From NCBI RefSeq assembly GCF_002980555.1, contig NZ_PVBT01000005.1, forward strand, positions 347,991-411,990: a DNA stretch of 64,000 nt, read 5' to 3'. The DNA is from Phyllobacterium myrsinacearum (lineage in GTDB: Bacteria > Pseudomonadota > Alphaproteobacteria > Rhizobiales > Rhizobiaceae). Under the pieces are notes generated by a model. It was not told the origin of the DNA. It was given only the letters and a program-made list of their open reading frames with translations, and ran no database searches. Positions 1 through 7,453 of the stretch are shown in pieces. Numbering within the stretch: position 1 is the stretch's first letter; each line of letters begins with the position of its first letter. Made by a program: the position numbers and the translations under genes.

Positions 1-1779
1 ATTGAAAGCGACGCTGTCTATGTCAGGCTCAATTTAGCCTCGGTCGAACAGGGCCTTCTCGATATCGATCTGATGGAGTTTCTCAGCTGCGCCGCACGGG
101 GAGGAGCCGAACCCGCTCTCAGGATCTGCGAACTTTATCGGGGCGACCTTCTGATACAAAATGAACCCGACAACTCTGACTTCGACGAATGGCTGGATAT
201 CAAGCGCGTCAAAATTCGCGATGATGCGATCGTTGCCCTGCGATCGGCTCTTGATCAGCCTCATTTCAATATTGACGAGAGACGGCAATGCGCGCGCAAG
301 CTGATCGACATCGACCCCTATCAGGAGGTCGGCTATCGCATGCTCATGCAAACGGCATCCCAGCTCGGGATGATCACGATGGTCGAACGAACGTTCCGGG
401 AATGCGCGAAGAAACTGCGCGATGACCTGGATATCGATCCAGAGGCTGAAACAATCGAGCTATACCAGCATCTGCACACCAAAAGATCGCTCAACTTGCC
501 GCAACCCGTCATTCATTCACCGGTGCTGGGGTCCTTGTCTCTCAACGATGCTGACCATCACCGGTCCTACTTTCTTCAGCCGGCAAATTCGCTCGAACTG
601 TCAAGACAGCCCATCCTGCCAAAGATTATTGTATTGTACCTGCCGCAAACCCTCGCAGACCCCATGGAGCAGTTGGCAGCCTCCCTGGTTGACGATATCA
701 CGATAGGATTGTGCCGCCTGCGTACGCTGTCCGTGGTCGCTCCCTATACATCCATCCGGGTTGTGACGGAATCGAGCATCAACGGCTTCTCCGACCTTCA
801 CGAACAATTGGGCGTGGATTTTGTCTTCGACAGCAGACTGATGCGCGGCGATGGCTTTTGCTTCCTCTCGGTAAAACTCATCAATACGCGCACGCGGGAG
901 ATCGTCTGGGCGGAAAAACAGAAATTTGATTATACGCTGCCTGAACAGCAGTACCGCCACCTGTCCATGCGCATCGTCCTGTCCATCGTCACCACCATCG
1001 AACGGGAGGAGCTGGACCGCTACAACCGGCTGATCCAGAATCCCGATGCCTATTACTGGTACCTTGTCGGCAAGCGTGAAATCGACAGCCTTGATCTGAC
1101 GAAAGTCCGTACCGCGCGGGATGCTTTCAAGAATGCCCTGATCGCAGCGCCGGATTTCGTGCCCGCCTTGAGCGGTGTCGCGCGAACCATGCAGCGCGAA
1201 TGGCTTGTTCTTGCACGCAATGACAAGGATATCCTGCTTGAAGGCGAACAAATCGCCAAGAAGGCCGCGCCCAACGACCCGGATGACGAACGGCCTTTGC
1301 GCGAGCTGGGCACCATCAATATGTATCTTGGCAAGTATGATGAAAGCCTGGAATATTTTGATCAAAGTGAGACGCTCAACCCGCAACATGCCGACCTGCT
1401 TGCCGACTACGCCGACGCCTTGACCCATTCCGGCGAGCTCGAACTGGCTCTCAGCAAAATCCAGCACGCAATTGCGCTGAACCCCCTGGCGCCCGACTAT
1501 TACTACTGGGTGGGCGCTGGCACCTTCCATTATCTCGATCGCTATGCCGAGGCCATCGCGTTTCTTCAGAAGATGAAAAATCCGCGAGCGGCCGCCCGCT
1601 TGATGGCAGCATGCTGGGCACGATTGGGTGAACATGAACAGGCCGCGGAATACAGAAATTATGCTCTGGAAGATAACCCGTCTTTTCGAATTGACGAATG
1701 GGTAAAATCGATGAGCCTCAGAATGCCTGCCCACCGTAGGATGTATGAAGAATCTCTACGCGAAGCGGGATTCCAGTGA
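1..1779 (+). CDS. BTAD/TPR transcriptional regulator (5' end outside window)
   Basis: The reading frame is open from base 1, so the true start and probably an N-terminal DNA-binding winged helix lie upstream. The first ~165 visible residues fit a bacterial transcriptional activation domain (BTAD), with an 'LYRGDLL' segment and helical pairs ending 'DDLDIDPEAET'. A central ~130-residue part resembles the TolB/adenylate-cyclase-associated domain found in such regulators ('LPQTLADPMEQLAASLVDDI'). The C-terminal ~220 residues are TPR-like helices (e.g. 'ALIAAPDFVPALSGVAR', 'LNPQHADLLADYADAL'). Such proteins act as cytoplasmic transcription regulators. It ends 33 bp before the first small protein of the YcaO/TfuA cluster and runs the same way, so I infer it is the cluster's regulator. 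The class is fairly sure; the target is inferred. Confidence 0.8.
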   Translation: MESDAVYVRLNLASVEQGLLDIDLMEFLSCAARGGAEPALRICELYRGDLLIQNEPDNSDFDEWLDIKRVKIRDDAIVALRSALDQPHFNIDERRQCARKLIDIDPYQEVGYRMLMQTASQLGMITMVERTFRECAKKLRDDLDIDPEAETIELYQHLHTKRSLNLPQPVIHSPVLGSLSLNDADHHRSYFLQPANSLELSRQPILPKIIVLYLPQTLADPMEQLAASLVDDITIGLCRLRTLSVVAPYTSIRVVTESSINGFSDLHEQLGVDFVFDSRLMRGDGFCFLSVKLINTRTREIVWAEKQKFDYTLPEQQYRHLSMRIVLSIVTTIEREELDRYNRLIQNPDAYYWYLVGKREIDSLDLTKVRTARDAFKNALIAAPDFVPALSGVARTMQREWLVLARNDKDILLEGEQIAKKAAPNDPDDERPLRELGTINMYLGKYDESLEYFDQSETLNPQHADLLADYADALTHSGELELALSKIQHAIALNPLAPDYYYWVGAGTFHYLDRYAEAIAFLQKMKNPRAAARLMAACWARLGEHEQAAEYRNYALEDNPSFRIDEWVKSMSLRMPAHRRMYEESLREAGFQ

Positions 1780-1812
1780 CGCAACGTCCAATACAAACAG
1801 GGGAAAACATGC

Positions 1813-2049
1813 ATGGAAAAGTATTTCATCATCGGGGAAGCCGGGACTGATGAACTTTGGCTTGTCAACACGGCGGAAAATCGCGTTGAAAAATTGAACA
1901 GCGCTGCCGCTGGATCCGTTATCGAAACCATCAATACAGCGCGAAAGAACGGAATTACACTCATCAAGGGAGTAAGTATCGCGATTGTTACAAACAGCAG
2001 GACGGGGGCTGATGTAAAAATGTCAATTACCGATCCAACAGTTAAATAA
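1813..2049 (+). CDS. Small protein A, candidate RiPP precursor (78 aa)
   Basis: I do not recognise a named family. The start is an ATG preceded by an AGGGGAAA ribosome site about 8 bases upstream. The first ~28 residues (K-Y/F-I-I-x-E-x-x-T-D-x-L-W-L-V-N, then V-E-x-L) are almost repeated in the next small gene at 2158, while the C-terminal halves differ. A conserved N-terminus with a variable C-terminus is what a leader/core precursor peptide looks like, and a YcaO and a TfuA gene follow directly. The product has no cysteine, so thiazole formation is excluded, but Ser, Thr and Gly residues are present near the C-terminus. A role as modification substrate is inferred. It could instead be a small accessory or immunity protein. 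Confidence 0.65.
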   Translation: MEKYFIIGEAGTDELWLVNTAENRVEKLNSAAAGSVIETINTARKNGITLIKGVSIAIVTNSRTGADVKMSITDPTVK

Positions 2050-2157
2050 AATAGAAATGTCGTTGGATAAGAAATCTCATCGATAATATTCAATTGATAT
2101 AGAAACGAATCAAAGTACCGTTGCCATGTGGTTCTCCTTCATGGAAAGGTTACTCGC

Positions 2158-2385
2158 ATGGCAAAGTTTTACATCATCGATGAGCCAGAGACCGACACGC
2201 TCTGGCTGGTAAACCTGGAAGAAAAAACCGTTGAGAGTCTTGATCGGAGTATGATTGAATGCTCCGGATCGGCTGGGTATGACTTCATAAAGACTATCAG
2301 TAATCGATCAGAAAATATAATGATTACTGAAGGTTACCGGAATGGCCCAGCGGAAAGACTCTCGTCCGCGAGCCCCTTGCAATAG
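2158..2385 (+). CDS. Small protein B, paralogue of protein A, candidate RiPP precursor (75 aa)
   Basis: The N-terminus (MAKFYIIDEPETDTLWLVN) parallels that of protein A, which fixes the start at the ATG at 2158. That ATG has GGAAAGG nine bases upstream. A GTG at 2128 in the same frame would add ten residues that protein A lacks. The C-terminal ~45 residues diverge fully from protein A and contain one cysteine, several Ser residues and two Gly. The 108-bp gap before it is clearly AT-rich compared with its surroundings. It lies 70 bp upstream of the YcaO gene. I infer a second precursor for the same modifying enzymes; no core or cleavage site can be assigned by eye. Confidence 0.65.
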   Translation: MAKFYIIDEPETDTLWLVNLEEKTVESLDRSMIECSGSAGYDFIKTISNRSENIMITEGYRNGPAERLSSASPLQ

Positions 2386-2455
2386 GCTGCGCTATTCCAG
2401 GGGATCATCGCATTTATCGATATAGGCACGATGATAACGGTTCGCTGGAGTAACA

Positions 2456-3712
2456 ATGCAGCAATTGGCCGAAACTTCCATACTGAACAGGCTGGCGGCG
2501 GATGAAGTCAATCTTTGTTCCGCCGCCCGTCTGGAGCAACGGTCGTCGACACGACTGATCGACGCGGATCTGACGGTGCAAAAACTGCGTCCGCACTTTC
2601 CCCATCTCGGCATCGTCCGGCTGGCCGAGGTAACCGGGCTGGACCGGATAGGAATCCCGGTGTGGATGGCTGTCCGCCCCAACAGCAAGACTCTGGCCGT
2701 GAGCCAGGGCAAGGGGATCACCACAGCCCATGCGCGCGCGTCCGCTGTCATGGAAGCGGCTGAGATCGCCATAGCCGAAAACATTCCCCTCGCATCGGTC
2801 CGCGCCAGCCGGCAGGACTTGCTGCAGGCCGGCAGGACCGTCTTTGACGGGCGGATGCTGGTTATGAAGGGCGCCGACGAACCAGCACCCGAGCTCATCG
2901 ATGAATGGCTTGAGGGCTATGACCTTCTGCGGAACAGAACGGTATTCGTACCCAGAGAACTCGTATCGCTCGACTTCACATCAGCGCGAAAAGCGCGGCA
3001 TTACTGCCAGTCGACCGATGGCCTTGCCTCGGGCAACTGCCTGCTTGAAGCTGTTATTCACGGCCTGTGCGAGCGCGTGGAACGCGACGCGACCGAACTA
3101 TGGCGGTTCAAGCGCGACAGTGCCGTCCATGCCCAGTGCGTCGACCCGGCGGTGTTCCCGGACGCCGGTATCCGCTGGCTGGCAGACAGGATCAGTGGGG
3201 CGGGTTTCCTGCTGCGCCTTTTCGATATTCGTTCCGATATCGGCCTTCCGGTATTCATGGCAACCATCAACCCGGTTTCGCGGAAAGGCACCTATCTGCA
3301 TTTCGACCTTTCTGCCGGGTATGGGTGCCACCTGTCGCCGCGCGTGGCCGCCATGCGGGCGATCACCGAGGCGGCCCAGACGCGTATCACCAATATTTCC
3401 GGCGCCAGAGATGATTTTGATCCCTCGGAATATGCGCAGCGCCTTGCTCCTGATCTCGGTGTCTACATAAGGGCAGAGCCGAGGGCCCATTGGCACTTTG
3501 ACGAACCGGAACCGTCAGAACCTGCGCGCCTCGATGCCTATCTCGACCCGTTGCGCAACCGCGGTATTGGCAGTGCGGTCGTTGTTCCCCTGGGCGGTGA
3601 AGCCTATGGAATGTCCGTTTGCCGCGTCCTGATCAACGAGCTGGAAAGCCCAGCCGGCATACGCAAACACCGCTTTGGCGGAAGGGCGCTGAACGCGATG
3701 TTGCTGCAATGA
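2456..3712 (+). CDS. YcaO-family ATP-dependent peptide-backbone modifying enzyme
   Basis: YcaO proteins use ATP to activate a backbone amide for attack by a Ser/Thr/Cys side chain (azolines) or by a sulfur donor (thioamides). The 418-residue protein shows two hallmark segments. The first is 'SQGKGITTAHARASAVMEAA' near residues 82-101. The second is the 'GLASG...LEAVIHGLCERVERDA' region near 185-210, with the Glu-rich nucleotide/Mg-binding pattern. The C-terminus ends in ALNAMLLQ and lacks the PxPxP tail usual in azoline cyclodehydratases. A GGAG site lies just before the ATG. Its stop overlaps the tfuA start (ATGA), so the two are probably translationally coupled. With a TfuA partner, thioamidation is the likelier chemistry, but that is inference. 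Confidence 0.93.
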   Translation: MQQLAETSILNRLAADEVNLCSAARLEQRSSTRLIDADLTVQKLRPHFPHLGIVRLAEVTGLDRIGIPVWMAVRPNSKTLAVSQGKGITTAHARASAVMEAAEIAIAENIPLASVRASRQDLLQAGRTVFDGRMLVMKGADEPAPELIDEWLEGYDLLRNRTVFVPRELVSLDFTSARKARHYCQSTDGLASGNCLLEAVIHGLCERVERDATELWRFKRDSAVHAQCVDPAVFPDAGIRWLADRISGAGFLLRLFDIRSDIGLPVFMATINPVSRKGTYLHFDLSAGYGCHLSPRVAAMRAITEAAQTRITNISGARDDFDPSEYAQRLAPDLGVYIRAEPRAHWHFDEPEPSEPARLDAYLDPLRNRGIGSAVVVPLGGEAYGMSVCRVLINELESPAGIRKHRFGGRALNAMLLQ

Positions 3713-4455
3713 AGATTCTGTTTGCAGGCCCAAGTCTTTCCAGAACCGAATTCGTGCCCGTGCGCACAAATGAAGATCGCCTGCTGCCCGATCGTTCTCT
3801 GACGTGCCGGGGGCCGGCGAAATGCGGGGATATCACCCGCGCGGTGGATGAAGGCTACAGCATGATCGGACTTGTCGACGGCCGTTTCGAGGATGTGGCC
3901 GCGGTCTGGCACAAGGAAATACTATACGCGCTTTCGCAGGGCGTCACCGTTCTCGGCGCGGCAAGCATGGGTGCGCTGCGTGCGGCGGAATGCCATCCAT
4001 TCGGCATGATCGGCATTGGGGAGGTTTTTGCGCGCTACGCGTTCGGCGGATTGGAGGACGATGCCGCGGTGGCACAGGTGCATGCACCGGCCGAGTTTGG
4101 CTATACTGCCTTCACAGAAGCCATGGTCACCGTTGATGCGACGCTGGATGCGGCGCTGCATGTATCGGCAATCACGCCCGGCGAACATGTCTTGATCCGC
4201 GACAGAGCCAATGCAGTGTTCTTCAAGGACAGGAGCTGGGCACGCATATTCGAGGCCCTGGCTCCCGATATCATTGACGCCGCCGGACGGCTCAAGCCTT
4301 TCATTCGCAACGTCAAAAGACAGGATGCGGAGGCCCTGTTGAACGTGTTGCTTGAAGGCAAAAACCCTGCCGAAGCCGGGGGATTGACGGCAGATTCCAC
4401 CAGCTGGCTCTTCAACGAAACGACGCAGTGGCGAAAACTGCGGGCTCAGCACTGA
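3709..4455 (+). CDS. tfuA: TfuA-like protein, YcaO partner (248 aa)
   Basis: The start is the ATG overlapping the ycaO stop; a longer in-frame ATG at 3619 lies inside ycaO and is unlikely. TfuA-core features are clear: 'KILFAGPSL' at the N-terminus, 'IGLVDGRFEDVAAVWHKEIL' near residue 50, and 'GAASMGALRAAE' near residue 84. TfuA is named from trifolitoxin production in Rhizobium. A TfuA works with YcaO in thioamidation of methyl-coenzyme M reductase, where it helps supply sulfur. Here the pair follows two precursor-like small proteins and a regulator. There is no McrA in bacteria of this kind, so the substrate should be a peptide made in the same operon. Confidence 0.93.
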   Translation: MKILFAGPSLSRTEFVPVRTNEDRLLPDRSLTCRGPAKCGDITRAVDEGYSMIGLVDGRFEDVAAVWHKEILYALSQGVTVLGAASMGALRAAECHPFGMIGIGEVFARYAFGGLEDDAAVAQVHAPAEFGYTAFTEAMVTVDATLDAALHVSAITPGEHVLIRDRANAVFFKDRSWARIFEALAPDIIDAAGRLKPFIRNVKRQDAEALLNVLLEGKNPAEAGGLTADSTSWLFNETTQWRKLRAQH

Positions 4456-4491
4456 ACGGATCCGCCGGGGTTTCAAAAAGGACTATCCTTG

Positions 4492-4517
4492 GAAGATGTA
4501 AGCGACAGTACATCTTC
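4492..4517. other. Perfect 9-bp inverted repeat with 8-nt loop
   Basis: The arms GAAGATGTA (4492-4500) and TACATCTTC (4509-4517) flank AGCGACAG. It lies 37 bp after the tfuA stop. No T-run follows on either strand, so it is not a textbook terminator. It may be an RNA stem-loop ending the tfuA transcript or a protein-binding site before the Hint gene. The rest of the 246-bp gap shows nothing else I can name. Confidence 0.5.
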
Positions 4518-4701
4518 GATGTATGATCCCTCCTCCAAAAGGATGCGGCCTTCGCTCTGGGTTGGCTTTTTTCAGCGCCCAGTAGGCCGATTTCAGCATC
4601 GGACAACCGCCAAAATCCAAAGCGTTTCCCGCCATGCCTTCCTATAGGATGGTCATCGGAATATTTGGATTGAAAGTTGCACTGTAACCACGGAGGGGAC
4701 T

Positions 4702-5568
4702 ATGTCACCAACTACAGAGCGGCACCGGCCACTCAGCCGCGCGCGACGACACTTTCTCGGCGTGGCGCTTTCCACGAGCGTCAAGGTCGCGGCAATCACA
4801 GGCTTGGCCACGGCCATGTCTTCCTTCCCCGCGCGGGCCATGGGAAGGAAATGGTGGAGACATGGCGGCGAGCCCGGCCATACCCCCGGCGGCGACAATC
4901 AAAACTGCTTTCTCCGGGGCACCTCGATCAGGACCCCGGCAGGTGAGGTTCATATTGAAGATCTTCGGATCGGCGATGATGTGGAAACCATGAACGGCAA
5001 AGCTGCCGCCGTGAGATGGATTGGACGCCAGGTTTACAAAAGGAACAGCCCGTCCTGGGCGGCCAGCGTCATGCCAATCCGTATTTCACGCCACGCTTTC
5101 GATCAGCAAACGCCCCACGCGGATCTCTACCTCTCGCCCAATCATGCACTGTATGTCGATGGCGTTCTGATCCGCGCGAAGGATCTGGTGAACGGCCTGT
5201 CCATTGCTCCGTCGCTTCCCCCTGACCGGGAGATCATCGAATATTTCCACATTGTGCTTGATACCCATGACGTGATCTTCGCCGAGGGTGCTCCTGCTGA
5301 AACATTCCTGCTTCGCGACAGTAACCACGAGAGCTTTACCAACTTTTCCGAATATGCACGCCTTTACCCCGCAGGCCTCGGCACACCCATGGTGCCCTTC
5401 GCGCCGATCATTGGTTATGAAGGCGGCCGCGAGAACCTGATGGCTCTTCTGCGCCTCGGCCTGCCCCGCTTCATCGGCTTGCGTGATCCGGTTCAGGACG
5501 CCCGCGACAGATTTGCCTTGCGTGCCCGGGAAACCGCAGGCACCGACCGGATGCACGCCATGGTGTAA
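4702..5568 (+). CDS. Tat-exported Hint-domain protein
   Basis: The 288-residue product starts with a twin-arginine signal: a basic n-region with 'ARRHFLGVAL', a hydrophobic stretch, and a likely cut after 'SFPARA'. A Hint (hedgehog/intein, Hint_2-like) domain begins near residue 70 at 'NCFLRGTSI', where the Cys is the expected first catalytic residue. It continues through 'RIGDDVETMNGK' and 'LSPNHALYVDGVLIRAKDL'. Hint domains self-cleave or transfer acyl groups, but the stand-alone bacterial forms have no settled role. A strong GGAGGGG site lies before the ATG. It follows tfuA in the same direction after 246 bp, so membership of the peptide cluster is possible but not shown. Confidence 0.85.
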   Translation: MSPTTERHRPLSRARRHFLGVALSTSVKVAAITGLATAMSSFPARAMGRKWWRHGGEPGHTPGGDNQNCFLRGTSIRTPAGEVHIEDLRIGDDVETMNGKAAAVRWIGRQVYKRNSPSWAASVMPIRISRHAFDQQTPHADLYLSPNHALYVDGVLIRAKDLVNGLSIAPSLPPDREIIEYFHIVLDTHDVIFAEGAPAETFLLRDSNHESFTNFSEYARLYPAGLGTPMVPFAPIIGYEGGRENLMALLRLGLPRFIGLRDPVQDARDRFALRARETAGTDRMHAMV

Positions 5569-5614
5569 CGAGAAGCGCCGCGGCAAGGAATAGGTAACCG
5601 CTTGAATGCGACAA

Positions 5615-5642
5615 GCAGGCGTTCCCCTCCGGGAACACCTGC
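5615..5642. terminator. Hairpin between convergent genes
   Basis: GCAGGCGTTCCC and GGGAACACCTGC pair around a CTCC loop with one C-A mismatch. It lies 47 bp after the Hint gene stop and 50 bp from the stop of the convergent GMC gene, a normal place for a bidirectional terminator. There is no strong T-run. Confidence 0.5.
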
Positions 5643-5691
5643 TTCGACATGTTCAGCAAGAGCGCTTACCTGGCTCAAGTCCGGCTAGTCC

Positions 5692-7341
5692 TCACACGGC
5701 TTCAGCGCGTTCTCCGCCCGTTCGGAAGCCTCCGATGCCTTCATGAAAGCCATGCAGCGCCTTGATATGATCGGCAAGCCGCAATGCCAGCGCGACAATT
5801 GTCAATGTCGGCATATCGTTGCCACAGGTCGGAAACACCGAACTGCCGGCGACGTGCAGGTTGTGGATGCCGTGCACCGTACAGTCCTGGTCGACGACGC
5901 CCCTATGCGGGTCGACATGCATCCGGGTGGTTCCCATATGATGATTGCATCCGATGATCGAAAGCTCAGGCTCTGCAGCCGGCCGCTCGAGATCGACATG
6001 TCCGACGCCGGATGCCTCAAACTCATCCTTAATCAGTCCCAGCATCCGTGAGTGGGTGTGCTTTTCCAGATCGCCGACACGCCAATCAAGTGCTGCCCGG
6101 TTGAGGCCCAATCTGTCCCGCTGCGCCGACAGCGTAACCCTGCTCTCCCTGTTGGGAACGGGTTCGATGACACTCTCGATCTGGAAATAATCCGACTTCG
6201 CGGCGAGCCGCAGCTTCCGGTAGAGCAGGGATGCCATGAGGTTGGGACTGCCAAGCGCAACGGTGGCAAATGTTCTCAATTTGAAGTCGCGATAATGCCG
6301 CCACCGGATGGCATTGTATATCTCGTGGAAACGCTCGGTCAGCGTGCTGTCCTCGCCCGCCCGGCATGCCCGGAAATAGGTGCGGCACTGCACCAGGTGT
6401 TCGTCCCGCTGAACCTGTTCCGTCAAGCCGAGATGCGCGCTTGCGCTGGTACCATCCACGGCAAGCTTGGGATTGTGATAGGTGTAGCGGGCATCGTAAA
6501 AGCGAAACGCGGCGGCATTGACCGCAGGTATCATCTGGCCAAGGCGAATACGCGGGTGCTCCATGAAATAGCGGCCGACCACATCGTGCTGGTTGCCAAG
6601 CCCTCGCTGATCACACCGGTTGGACAGCAGGAGAAGACGGGCGTTTTCGATCCCGCCCGCGGCTAGAATGACTCTTTGGGCCCGCACGAACATCATCTTT
6701 TGCCCATATGTCGCCACGTGCACGCCGGTTACAGTTGATGGATCTTCATGCGTCGCGATCTCGGTTGCATTGGCATTCAGCAGCACTTTCGTCGTTTGCG
6801 CGGTGCGTAGAAACGCCTCATAGTCGCGGCCAAACCGCGTTGGCGGGCTAAACTTGCTCACCATCGTCTCAAGCGAGGCATCATTCAGCTCCAGCAGTAT
6901 GGAGCGGTCGCCCACGAGATGTTCGTGCCAGAACTGCGGTTCGAAACCGTGATTATTGACTTGGACCAGGTCGCTTGCACGGGCATAGAACCGCTGCATC
7001 TCCGTCAGATCGAACGGCCATCCACTGTTGGGCACCCAGTGCCGCGGTTCAAAATCAATGCCGATGAACGGTCGTATCCACCCGCCCCAGCAATTGGAAC
7101 TGCCGCCGAATTGCCGGGTTCTCGTCGCCTGAAGGTCGTAGGGGATGCCAAGGTTTTCGCCCTGGTAGAGGGATTGTGACGCGGCATTGAAGTTCAGTCC
7201 ACCGCCTTCAAGAACGATCGTTTCAATGCCCCGTTTCTGGAATTCGAGCGCAAGCGTGATCCCTGCGACGCCGCCGCCAACGATGCATATCGCGGCATCC
7301 AGAACTGAACCCGCTGGAAGTTCTCTGGCGTCAACAAACAT
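5692..7341 (-). CDS. GMC-family FAD-dependent oxidoreductase
   Basis: A soluble ~549-residue flavoprotein of the glucose-methanol-choline family, which oxidises alcohols. The N-terminal FAD-binding Rossmann motif 'CIVGGGVAGITLALEF' lies around residue 18. The C-terminal substrate/FAD domain has 'GCNHHMGTTRMHVDP', carrying the active-site His, then 'LHVAGSSVFPTCGNDMPTLT'. I chose the ATG at 7341. A TTG at 7377 would add 12 residues and neither has a strong ribosome site. No Tat or Sec signal is visible. It converges on the Hint gene and is separated from the PfkB operon by 279 bp, so it is probably its own unit. The substrate is unknown. Confidence 0.9.
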   Translation of the reverse strand: MFVDARELPAGSVLDAAICIVGGGVAGITLALEFQKRGIETIVLEGGGLNFNAASQSLYQGENLGIPYDLQATRTRQFGGSSNCWGGWIRPFIGIDFEPRHWVPNSGWPFDLTEMQRFYARASDLVQVNNHGFEPQFWHEHLVGDRSILLELNDASLETMVSKFSPPTRFGRDYEAFLRTAQTTKVLLNANATEIATHEDPSTVTGVHVATYGQKMMFVRAQRVILAAGGIENARLLLLSNRCDQRGLGNQHDVVGRYFMEHPRIRLGQMIPAVNAAAFRFYDARYTYHNPKLAVDGTSASAHLGLTEQVQRDEHLVQCRTYFRACRAGEDSTLTERFHEIYNAIRWRHYRDFKLRTFATVALGSPNLMASLLYRKLRLAAKSDYFQIESVIEPVPNRESRVTLSAQRDRLGLNRAALDWRVGDLEKHTHSRMLGLIKDEFEASGVGHVDLERPAAEPELSIIGCNHHMGTTRMHVDPHRGVVDQDCTVHGIHNLHVAGSSVFPTCGNDMPTLTIVALALRLADHIKALHGFHEGIGGFRTGGERAEAV

Positions 7342-7453
7342 GGCGTGAAAGCCCGGATTGAGCAAAGCTGAAAACAATATTGAGCGATATGGCGTGTTCC
7401 ATTGCCGATCGACCTCAAGCCAGAACGAGCAAGACCAGTGTTATGCTCACAGA

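Follow-up and report, generated by a model that had tools for sequence, protein, structure and literature searches.

We analysed a 64,000-nucleotide stretch of the Phyllobacterium myrsinacearum genome (contig NZ_PVBT01000005.1, positions 347,991 to 411,990 of the forward strand; hereafter the window) and found at positions 1–4455 a gene cluster that probably directs biosynthesis of a thioamidated ribosomally synthesized and post-translationally modified peptide (RiPP). Five genes lie there in a single direction on the forward strand: a BTAD and tetratricopeptide-repeat (TPR) transcriptional regulator (REG), two small proteins (SP1 and SP2) that would be the precursors, a YcaO enzyme and a TfuA protein. 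A first-pass annotation had proposed these gene kinds with this order, strand and short spacing, all of which were borne out by the coordinates and Pfam matches. REG occupies positions 1..1779 (BTAD, PF03704, E = 2.4e-10, plus TPR), its 5′ end lying 246 bases upstream of the window (full length 674 amino acids, L003:17745-19769). YcaO (418 amino acids) spans 2456..3712 and TfuA (248 amino acids) spans 3709..4455. The REG–SP1, SP1–SP2 and SP2–YcaO gaps are 33, 108 and 70 bases, and the TfuA ATG at 3709 overlaps the YcaO stop codon (3710–3712) as ATGA.

SP1 (positions 1813..2049, 78 amino acids) is a putative precursor with a KGV-type leader and a short tail, and matches a hidden Markov model (HMM) trained on non-Phyllobacterium precursors, described below, with E = 2.3e-11. 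Its putative core, NSRTGADVKMSITDPTVK (1993..2046), has a boundary set by tail comparison and a low-confidence structure model. SP2 (2158..2385, 75 amino acids; HMM E = 1.2e-4) likewise looks like a precursor, with a leader of about 60 residues followed by a single predicted core unit, RNGPAERLSSAS (2338..2373), defined from the regular-expression units of 19 congeneric SP2 proteins. Translation of SP2 most likely starts at ATG 2158, not at the GTG at 2128 given by the open reading frame (ORF) finder, because GGAAAGG lies upstream and the start region is conserved among relatives. SP1 and SP2 are paralogues; aligned to each other they are 38% identical (E = 1e-11, a value that applies to this one alignment).

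SP1 and SP2 are real genes: in comparison with the nearest relative, L044, the amino acid is altered by 9 of 30 codon changes in SP1 and by 1 of 21 in SP2. The corresponding ratios of non-synonymous to synonymous substitution rates (dN/dS) are 0.097 for SP1, 0.0096 for SP2, 0.091 for YcaO and 0.137 for TfuA, so that purifying selection acts on both small proteins and is very strong on SP2, the more constrained of the two. The order REG–SP1–SP2–YcaO–TfuA was kept in 18 of 20 searched genomes of the genus. The two exceptions (G012 and G013) have neither TfuA nor REG, and REG therefore occurs in exactly the 18 congeners with TfuA. Identity to the window is lower for SP1 (0.39–0.88) and the SP2 leader (0.40–0.98) than for YcaO (0.70–0.89).

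Related precursors were found well beyond the genus. A scan with a YcaO alignment yielded 224 relatives, the best 80 of which make up the 80 loci considered here, from Phyllobacterium, Rhizobium, Sinorhizobium/Ensifer, Shinella, Hoeflea, Neorhizobium, Aureimonas and other genera. The interval between REG and YcaO contains a short ORF whose product follows the pattern M-x-K-VVVIG...LWLADL-x-AGTV...KGVDFAVA and then ends in a short tail. An HMM trained only on 50 non-Phyllobacterium precursors and run against 2,517 ORFs of the window and 15 Phyllobacterium loci, recovered SP1 in 16 of 16 and SP2 in 9 of 16, with no other ORF above the HMMER inclusion line (L097_6505, L069_6395, L070_6674 and L072_6666 were excluded from HMM work as duplicate or spurious). 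Regular-expression selection found a precursor in 62 of the 80 loci (63 with the window); a full HMM, trained on these same loci, raised this to 76. At 74 of the 80 loci, the member starts no more than 1.3 kb upstream of YcaO. The full HMM detected no family member in L088, L110, L111 or L132, the first three of which also gave no REG or TfuA match, and in L093 and L124 the member lies outside the slot preceding YcaO. Four long precursors (L097, L114, L133 and L135) apparently repeat the KGV-like half of the leader along with the tail.

No Pfam or NCBIfam model covers this family; single matches in 1 of 30 members were judged to be chance, as were profile matches of alignment A3, the one that includes SP1, to designed proteins in the PDB. 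Among PLSDB plasmids, 58 records match one family member, annotated as a hypothetical protein in the two records examined. In wider samples, 27 of 347 genomes of the order matched (six of them the source genome or the same family, and several of the matches weak) and 2 of 337 of the class (the source genome and one weak partial match); within the sampled genomes the family looks confined to Hyphomicrobiales. A structure model of SP1 built on alignment A3 was of low confidence (mean predicted local distance difference test (pLDDT) 67, predicted template modelling score 0.43), with strands at residues 4–8, 15–19 and 24–28, a helix at 30–45, poor order after residue 45 and a tail predicted to have no regular structure.

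The tails of these proteins look like RiPP cores, judging from their repeats. In congeneric SP2 proteins we counted 89 units in 19 proteins (window included), 1–8 in each, with the first unit at residue 55–61 and the consensus R-S-[DN]-P-S-[DE]-R-A-[HFY]-S; the units are tandem in 14 of the 19 and single in five, including the window, so that tandem cores are evident only in relatives and window SP2 holds one unit. The eight-unit SP2 gene of L069 holds a DNA array that repeats every 39 bases (7.4 copies at 91% matches), and unit similarity is 0.72 within a gene versus 0.61 between genes. Other genera have other units: SGGFMDA-like three times in Shinella, FSGKLEA four times in L113, GRMDEG-like in L095, RSDAASHHYFPNRG eight times in L074 and RSDAASHIFYG six times in L075. 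A further example from the family is RSDPSERAYSFDG, and copy number across the family reaches eight. A 5-mer present at least three times occurred in 22 of 94 precursor ORFs or, counted by locus, in 22 of 76, versus 5 of 5,676 control ORFs, which were of 60–250 amino acids and did not overlap a precursor ORF. Cysteine is almost absent from the tails.

The precursors are also linked to the modifying enzymes, and SP1 and SP2 are very probably substrates of YcaO/TfuA. Of 394 genomes sampled from the bacterial family, 78 contain a precursor and at least 123 a TfuA, and all 78 precursor genomes have TfuA. At no fewer than 75 of 91 precursor places, a same-strand TfuA follows less than 3.5 kb downstream, the median distance being 1,371 bases. 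The view that the small proteins are precursor-like and associated with YcaO/TfuA, which the first-pass annotation had drawn from position, is thus supported by the leader family, the linkage and the 78 of 78 genomes. That annotation had also suggested asking whether homologues are widespread without YcaO/TfuA; mostly they are not.

Several observations weigh against this assignment. Among the matches listed, 16 of the 91 precursor places have no close downstream TfuA. Nine of these (L147–L155) were examined over 8–10 kb each, and seven (L147–L153) proved to be REG and a precursor with no YcaO or TfuA and at least 3 kb clear on either side. TfuA and YcaO are separated in several Sinorhizobium loci; 7 of the 16 SP2 proteins fall below the inclusion line of the non-Phyllobacterium HMM; and the leader–tail boundary is based on alignment and the low-confidence SP1 model. 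Finally, the SP1 and SP2 tails have only a weak motif in common, so that possibly not both are substrates. Of the two remaining examined places, L154 has TfuA nearby on the opposite strand, and L155 has REG, precursor and YcaO with no TfuA in 8 kb. The latter arrangement, with no TfuA within the stretch examined, was seen in Sinorhizobium and Rhizobium at L106, L108, L122, L137, L138, L155 and L162. On pSymB of Sinorhizobium meliloti, REG is annotated as an adenylate cyclase, and precursor and YcaO overlap by 4 bases.

The enzyme-free pairs bear on another explanation, namely that SP1 and SP2 work with the regulator, or have a regulatory function of their own, and are not YcaO/TfuA substrates. 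Such a role would also suit the short REG–precursor spacing: from REG stop to precursor start we measured 17–258 bases (60 loci, median 29.5), with 59 of 60 at 200 bases or less. The REG–precursor pair is the most constant part of the cluster. Two degenerate second copies of the cluster can be read either way. In L197 (G010) and L198 (G014) an SP2-like ORF with about four units stands beside YcaO remnants, with REG intact in L197 and in two pieces in L198; the ORF has thus outlasted the enzyme gene, but these decayed copies also mean that orphan pairs can arise through loss from a full cluster. The presence of TfuA in every precursor genome and the tandem tails argue against a purely regulatory role, as does a mirror-tree analysis in which tail divergence followed YcaO slightly more than REG (partial correlation 0.385 with YcaO given REG and 0.20 with REG given YcaO). 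That analysis covered the 63 loci in which every gene and a precursor were present (17 of the 80 were dropped), and its distances for the REG N terminus are unreliable because tblastn pieces often miss that end. Taken together, we consider it very unlikely that SP1 and SP2 act solely with the regulator.

Returning to SP1 and SP2 as precursors, the two enzymes point to thioamide formation. YcaO matches PF02624 (E = 6.4e-60) and TIGR00702 above its cut-off, and its nearest solved structure is the MJ1094 YcaO (6pe3, E = 1.9e-27). TfuA matches PF07812 (E = 2.6e-39), its nearest solved structure being a TfuA-domain protein (6xp8, E = 2.1e-26); the serine of an ASMGALRA motif and two lysines are invariant in 71 of 71 TfuA proteins, and the serine is retained in the window TfuA and also present in 6xp8. 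TfuA has been described to hydrolyse the thiocarboxylate ThiS-COSH through a Ser–Lys pair, and YcaO to use sulfide to form a thioamide via a phosphorylated intermediate (PMC13185837). The best-matching models for the window enzymes are those of the YcaO and TfuA that thioamidate a glycine of McrA in methanogens (TIGR03266, 193.7 bits; NF033432, 153.7 bits), but both scores fall below the equivalog cut-offs of 365 and 235.2. The source genome has one YcaO and one TfuA, and a genome-wide search for McrA (PF02249), positive in two control methanogens, was negative, in agreement with the first-pass annotation that the cluster has no McrA.

That YcaO instead forms azolines, giving a linear azol(in)e-containing peptide, we regard as highly improbable. 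A SagD-type YcaO model does match, below its cut-off (112.8 versus 219.25 bits), and the core unit is rich in serine. However, TfuA is present, the best-matching models are the thioamidation pair (themselves not reaching their cut-offs), and the tails have almost no cysteine. Moreover, the seven proteins of positions 1–7377 include neither an E1-like partner nor a flavin dehydrogenase, since none belongs to the ThiF or nitroreductase families.

In the thioamidation pathway we propose, the enzymes would recognize the leader, the N-terminal 50–60 residues or so; TfuA would release sulfide from a ThiS-type thiocarboxylate carrier; and YcaO, with ATP, would replace a backbone oxygen of the C-terminal tail by sulfur. 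The leader would then be removed by general peptidases, with multi-unit precursors yielding several similar peptides, as has been suggested for thiovarsolins (PMC6511847), and the adjoining BTAD/TPR protein would control the cluster.

Release of the peptide is the step on which a further alternative turns. SP1 and SP2 may be thioamidated yet stay uncut and act as whole proteins, like McrA or uL16, the repeats being multiple modified sites. In accord with this, among recurrent flanking families at the 80 loci (ORFs of at least 120 amino acids) we found no exporter, protease or resistance gene at a fixed place, and the leader is predicted to form three strands and a helix. Variable unit numbers (1–8) and short disordered tails, by contrast, suit released peptides better, and a thiovarsolin is released without a protease from its cluster (PMC6511847). 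On balance an uncut product appears unlikely.

If the product is a released peptide, it may be a signal. Here a TPR regulator lies next to a propeptide-like gene, as in RRNPP systems, in which adjacent genes encode a TPR receptor and its propeptide (PMC10075063). We put forward, as a doubtful possibility, that the cluster makes a peptide signal modified with sulfur, which the TPR domain of the paired REG would bind, in an RRNPP-like manner but in Gram-negative rhizobia. The thioamide may protect the peptide from proteases, tandem cores may raise the amount of peptide made, as multi-copy pheromone precursors do, and orphan REG–precursor pairs may use YcaO/TfuA encoded elsewhere in the genome. 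The seven enzyme-free pairs, the short REG–precursor spacing and the lack of a recurrent exporter, protease or resistance gene at a fixed place would fit such a reading by the regulator. On the other side, the co-divergence test gave the regulator–tail link no preference (63 loci), and BTAD regulators commonly govern biosynthesis clusters. Unlike RRNPP systems as described for Bacillota (PMC10075063), the window regulator is BTAD-type and alphaproteobacterial, and its peptide is presumably enzyme-modified.

The surroundings of the cluster vary. Outside Phyllobacterium, the largest recurrent flanking family precedes REG in 32 loci and contains an HTH_3 (Cro/C1-type) protein (one member identified, for example L128:4212-4880), and the next largest, with 20 loci, resembles a mix of ABC ATPases whose positions and strands vary. 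In Phyllobacterium, REG is preceded by a gene for a LuxR-type regulator (L003:16087-17025) together with sugar-polymer genes. The Hint_2 (4702-5568), GMC (5692-7377), kinase and ABC neighbours were rejected as cluster members, since among 26 loci they are retained only in L044, weak ABC matches aside. The Hint_2-domain protein (PF13403, E = 1.5e-42) has an N terminus resembling a twin-arginine signal. A defence system was also rejected, PADLOC yielding just a weak TPR match to REG. Two loci (L034, G007:C6; L056, G020:C86) hold a second, different YcaO–TfuA locus after a 1,025-amino-acid cyclase/ATPase-like regulator, where a motif search found no precursor of the SP1/SP2 family. In another family of the order, L058 (G051:C202, reversed) has a small ORF with PTQVCGKISPKAVT repeats upstream of YcaO and a partial TfuA.

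Trifolitoxin (tfx), with its tfuA in Rhizobium, is similar in its rhizobial origin and the tfuA name but is described as azol(in)e-modified. The first-pass annotation expected product and pathway to differ from described classes, an expectation not supported in that form: YcaO–TfuA clusters are a recognized predicted class, numbering above 500 in Rhizobium (Malit et al. 2021, PMC8120280), and the thiovarsolins of Streptomyces varsoviensis (var; VarA, VarY, VarT) already combine a leader and variable tandem cores (one to five) with YcaO and TfuA, give short linear products and have no dedicated cluster protease (PMC6511847). They differ in being actinobacterial, in also needing or carrying heme-oxygenase-like, ATP-grasp, amidinotransferase and MFS genes, and in a core (APR) unrelated by eye; the sections of that report consulted describe no BTAD/TPR regulator–precursor pairing (PMC6511847). 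The clusters of Malit et al. resemble ours in adjacent YcaO–TfuA genes of rhizobia and other Pseudomonadota, computationally predicted to give thioamidated RiPPs, but the main text mentions neither Phyllobacterium, repeats nor a TPR/BTAD regulator, and precursor families in its supplements may overlap with ours (PMC8120280). In a search of the open-licence literature outside those supplements, we found no description of this precursor family, its twin arrangement or its tight pairing with a regulator. The enzyme class is thus known and already mined in Rhizobium, and this precursor variant is probably new.

Known YcaO–TfuA RiPPs are actinobacterial, and most predicted clusters are proteobacterial with substrates to be assigned (PMC8120280, 2021). 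The leader family with its tandem cores names precursors and exact peptides for Phyllobacterium, Rhizobium, Sinorhizobium, Ensifer and Shinella, and its HMM can find more. If the peptides are signals, they would represent communication by modified peptides in plant-associated bacteria.

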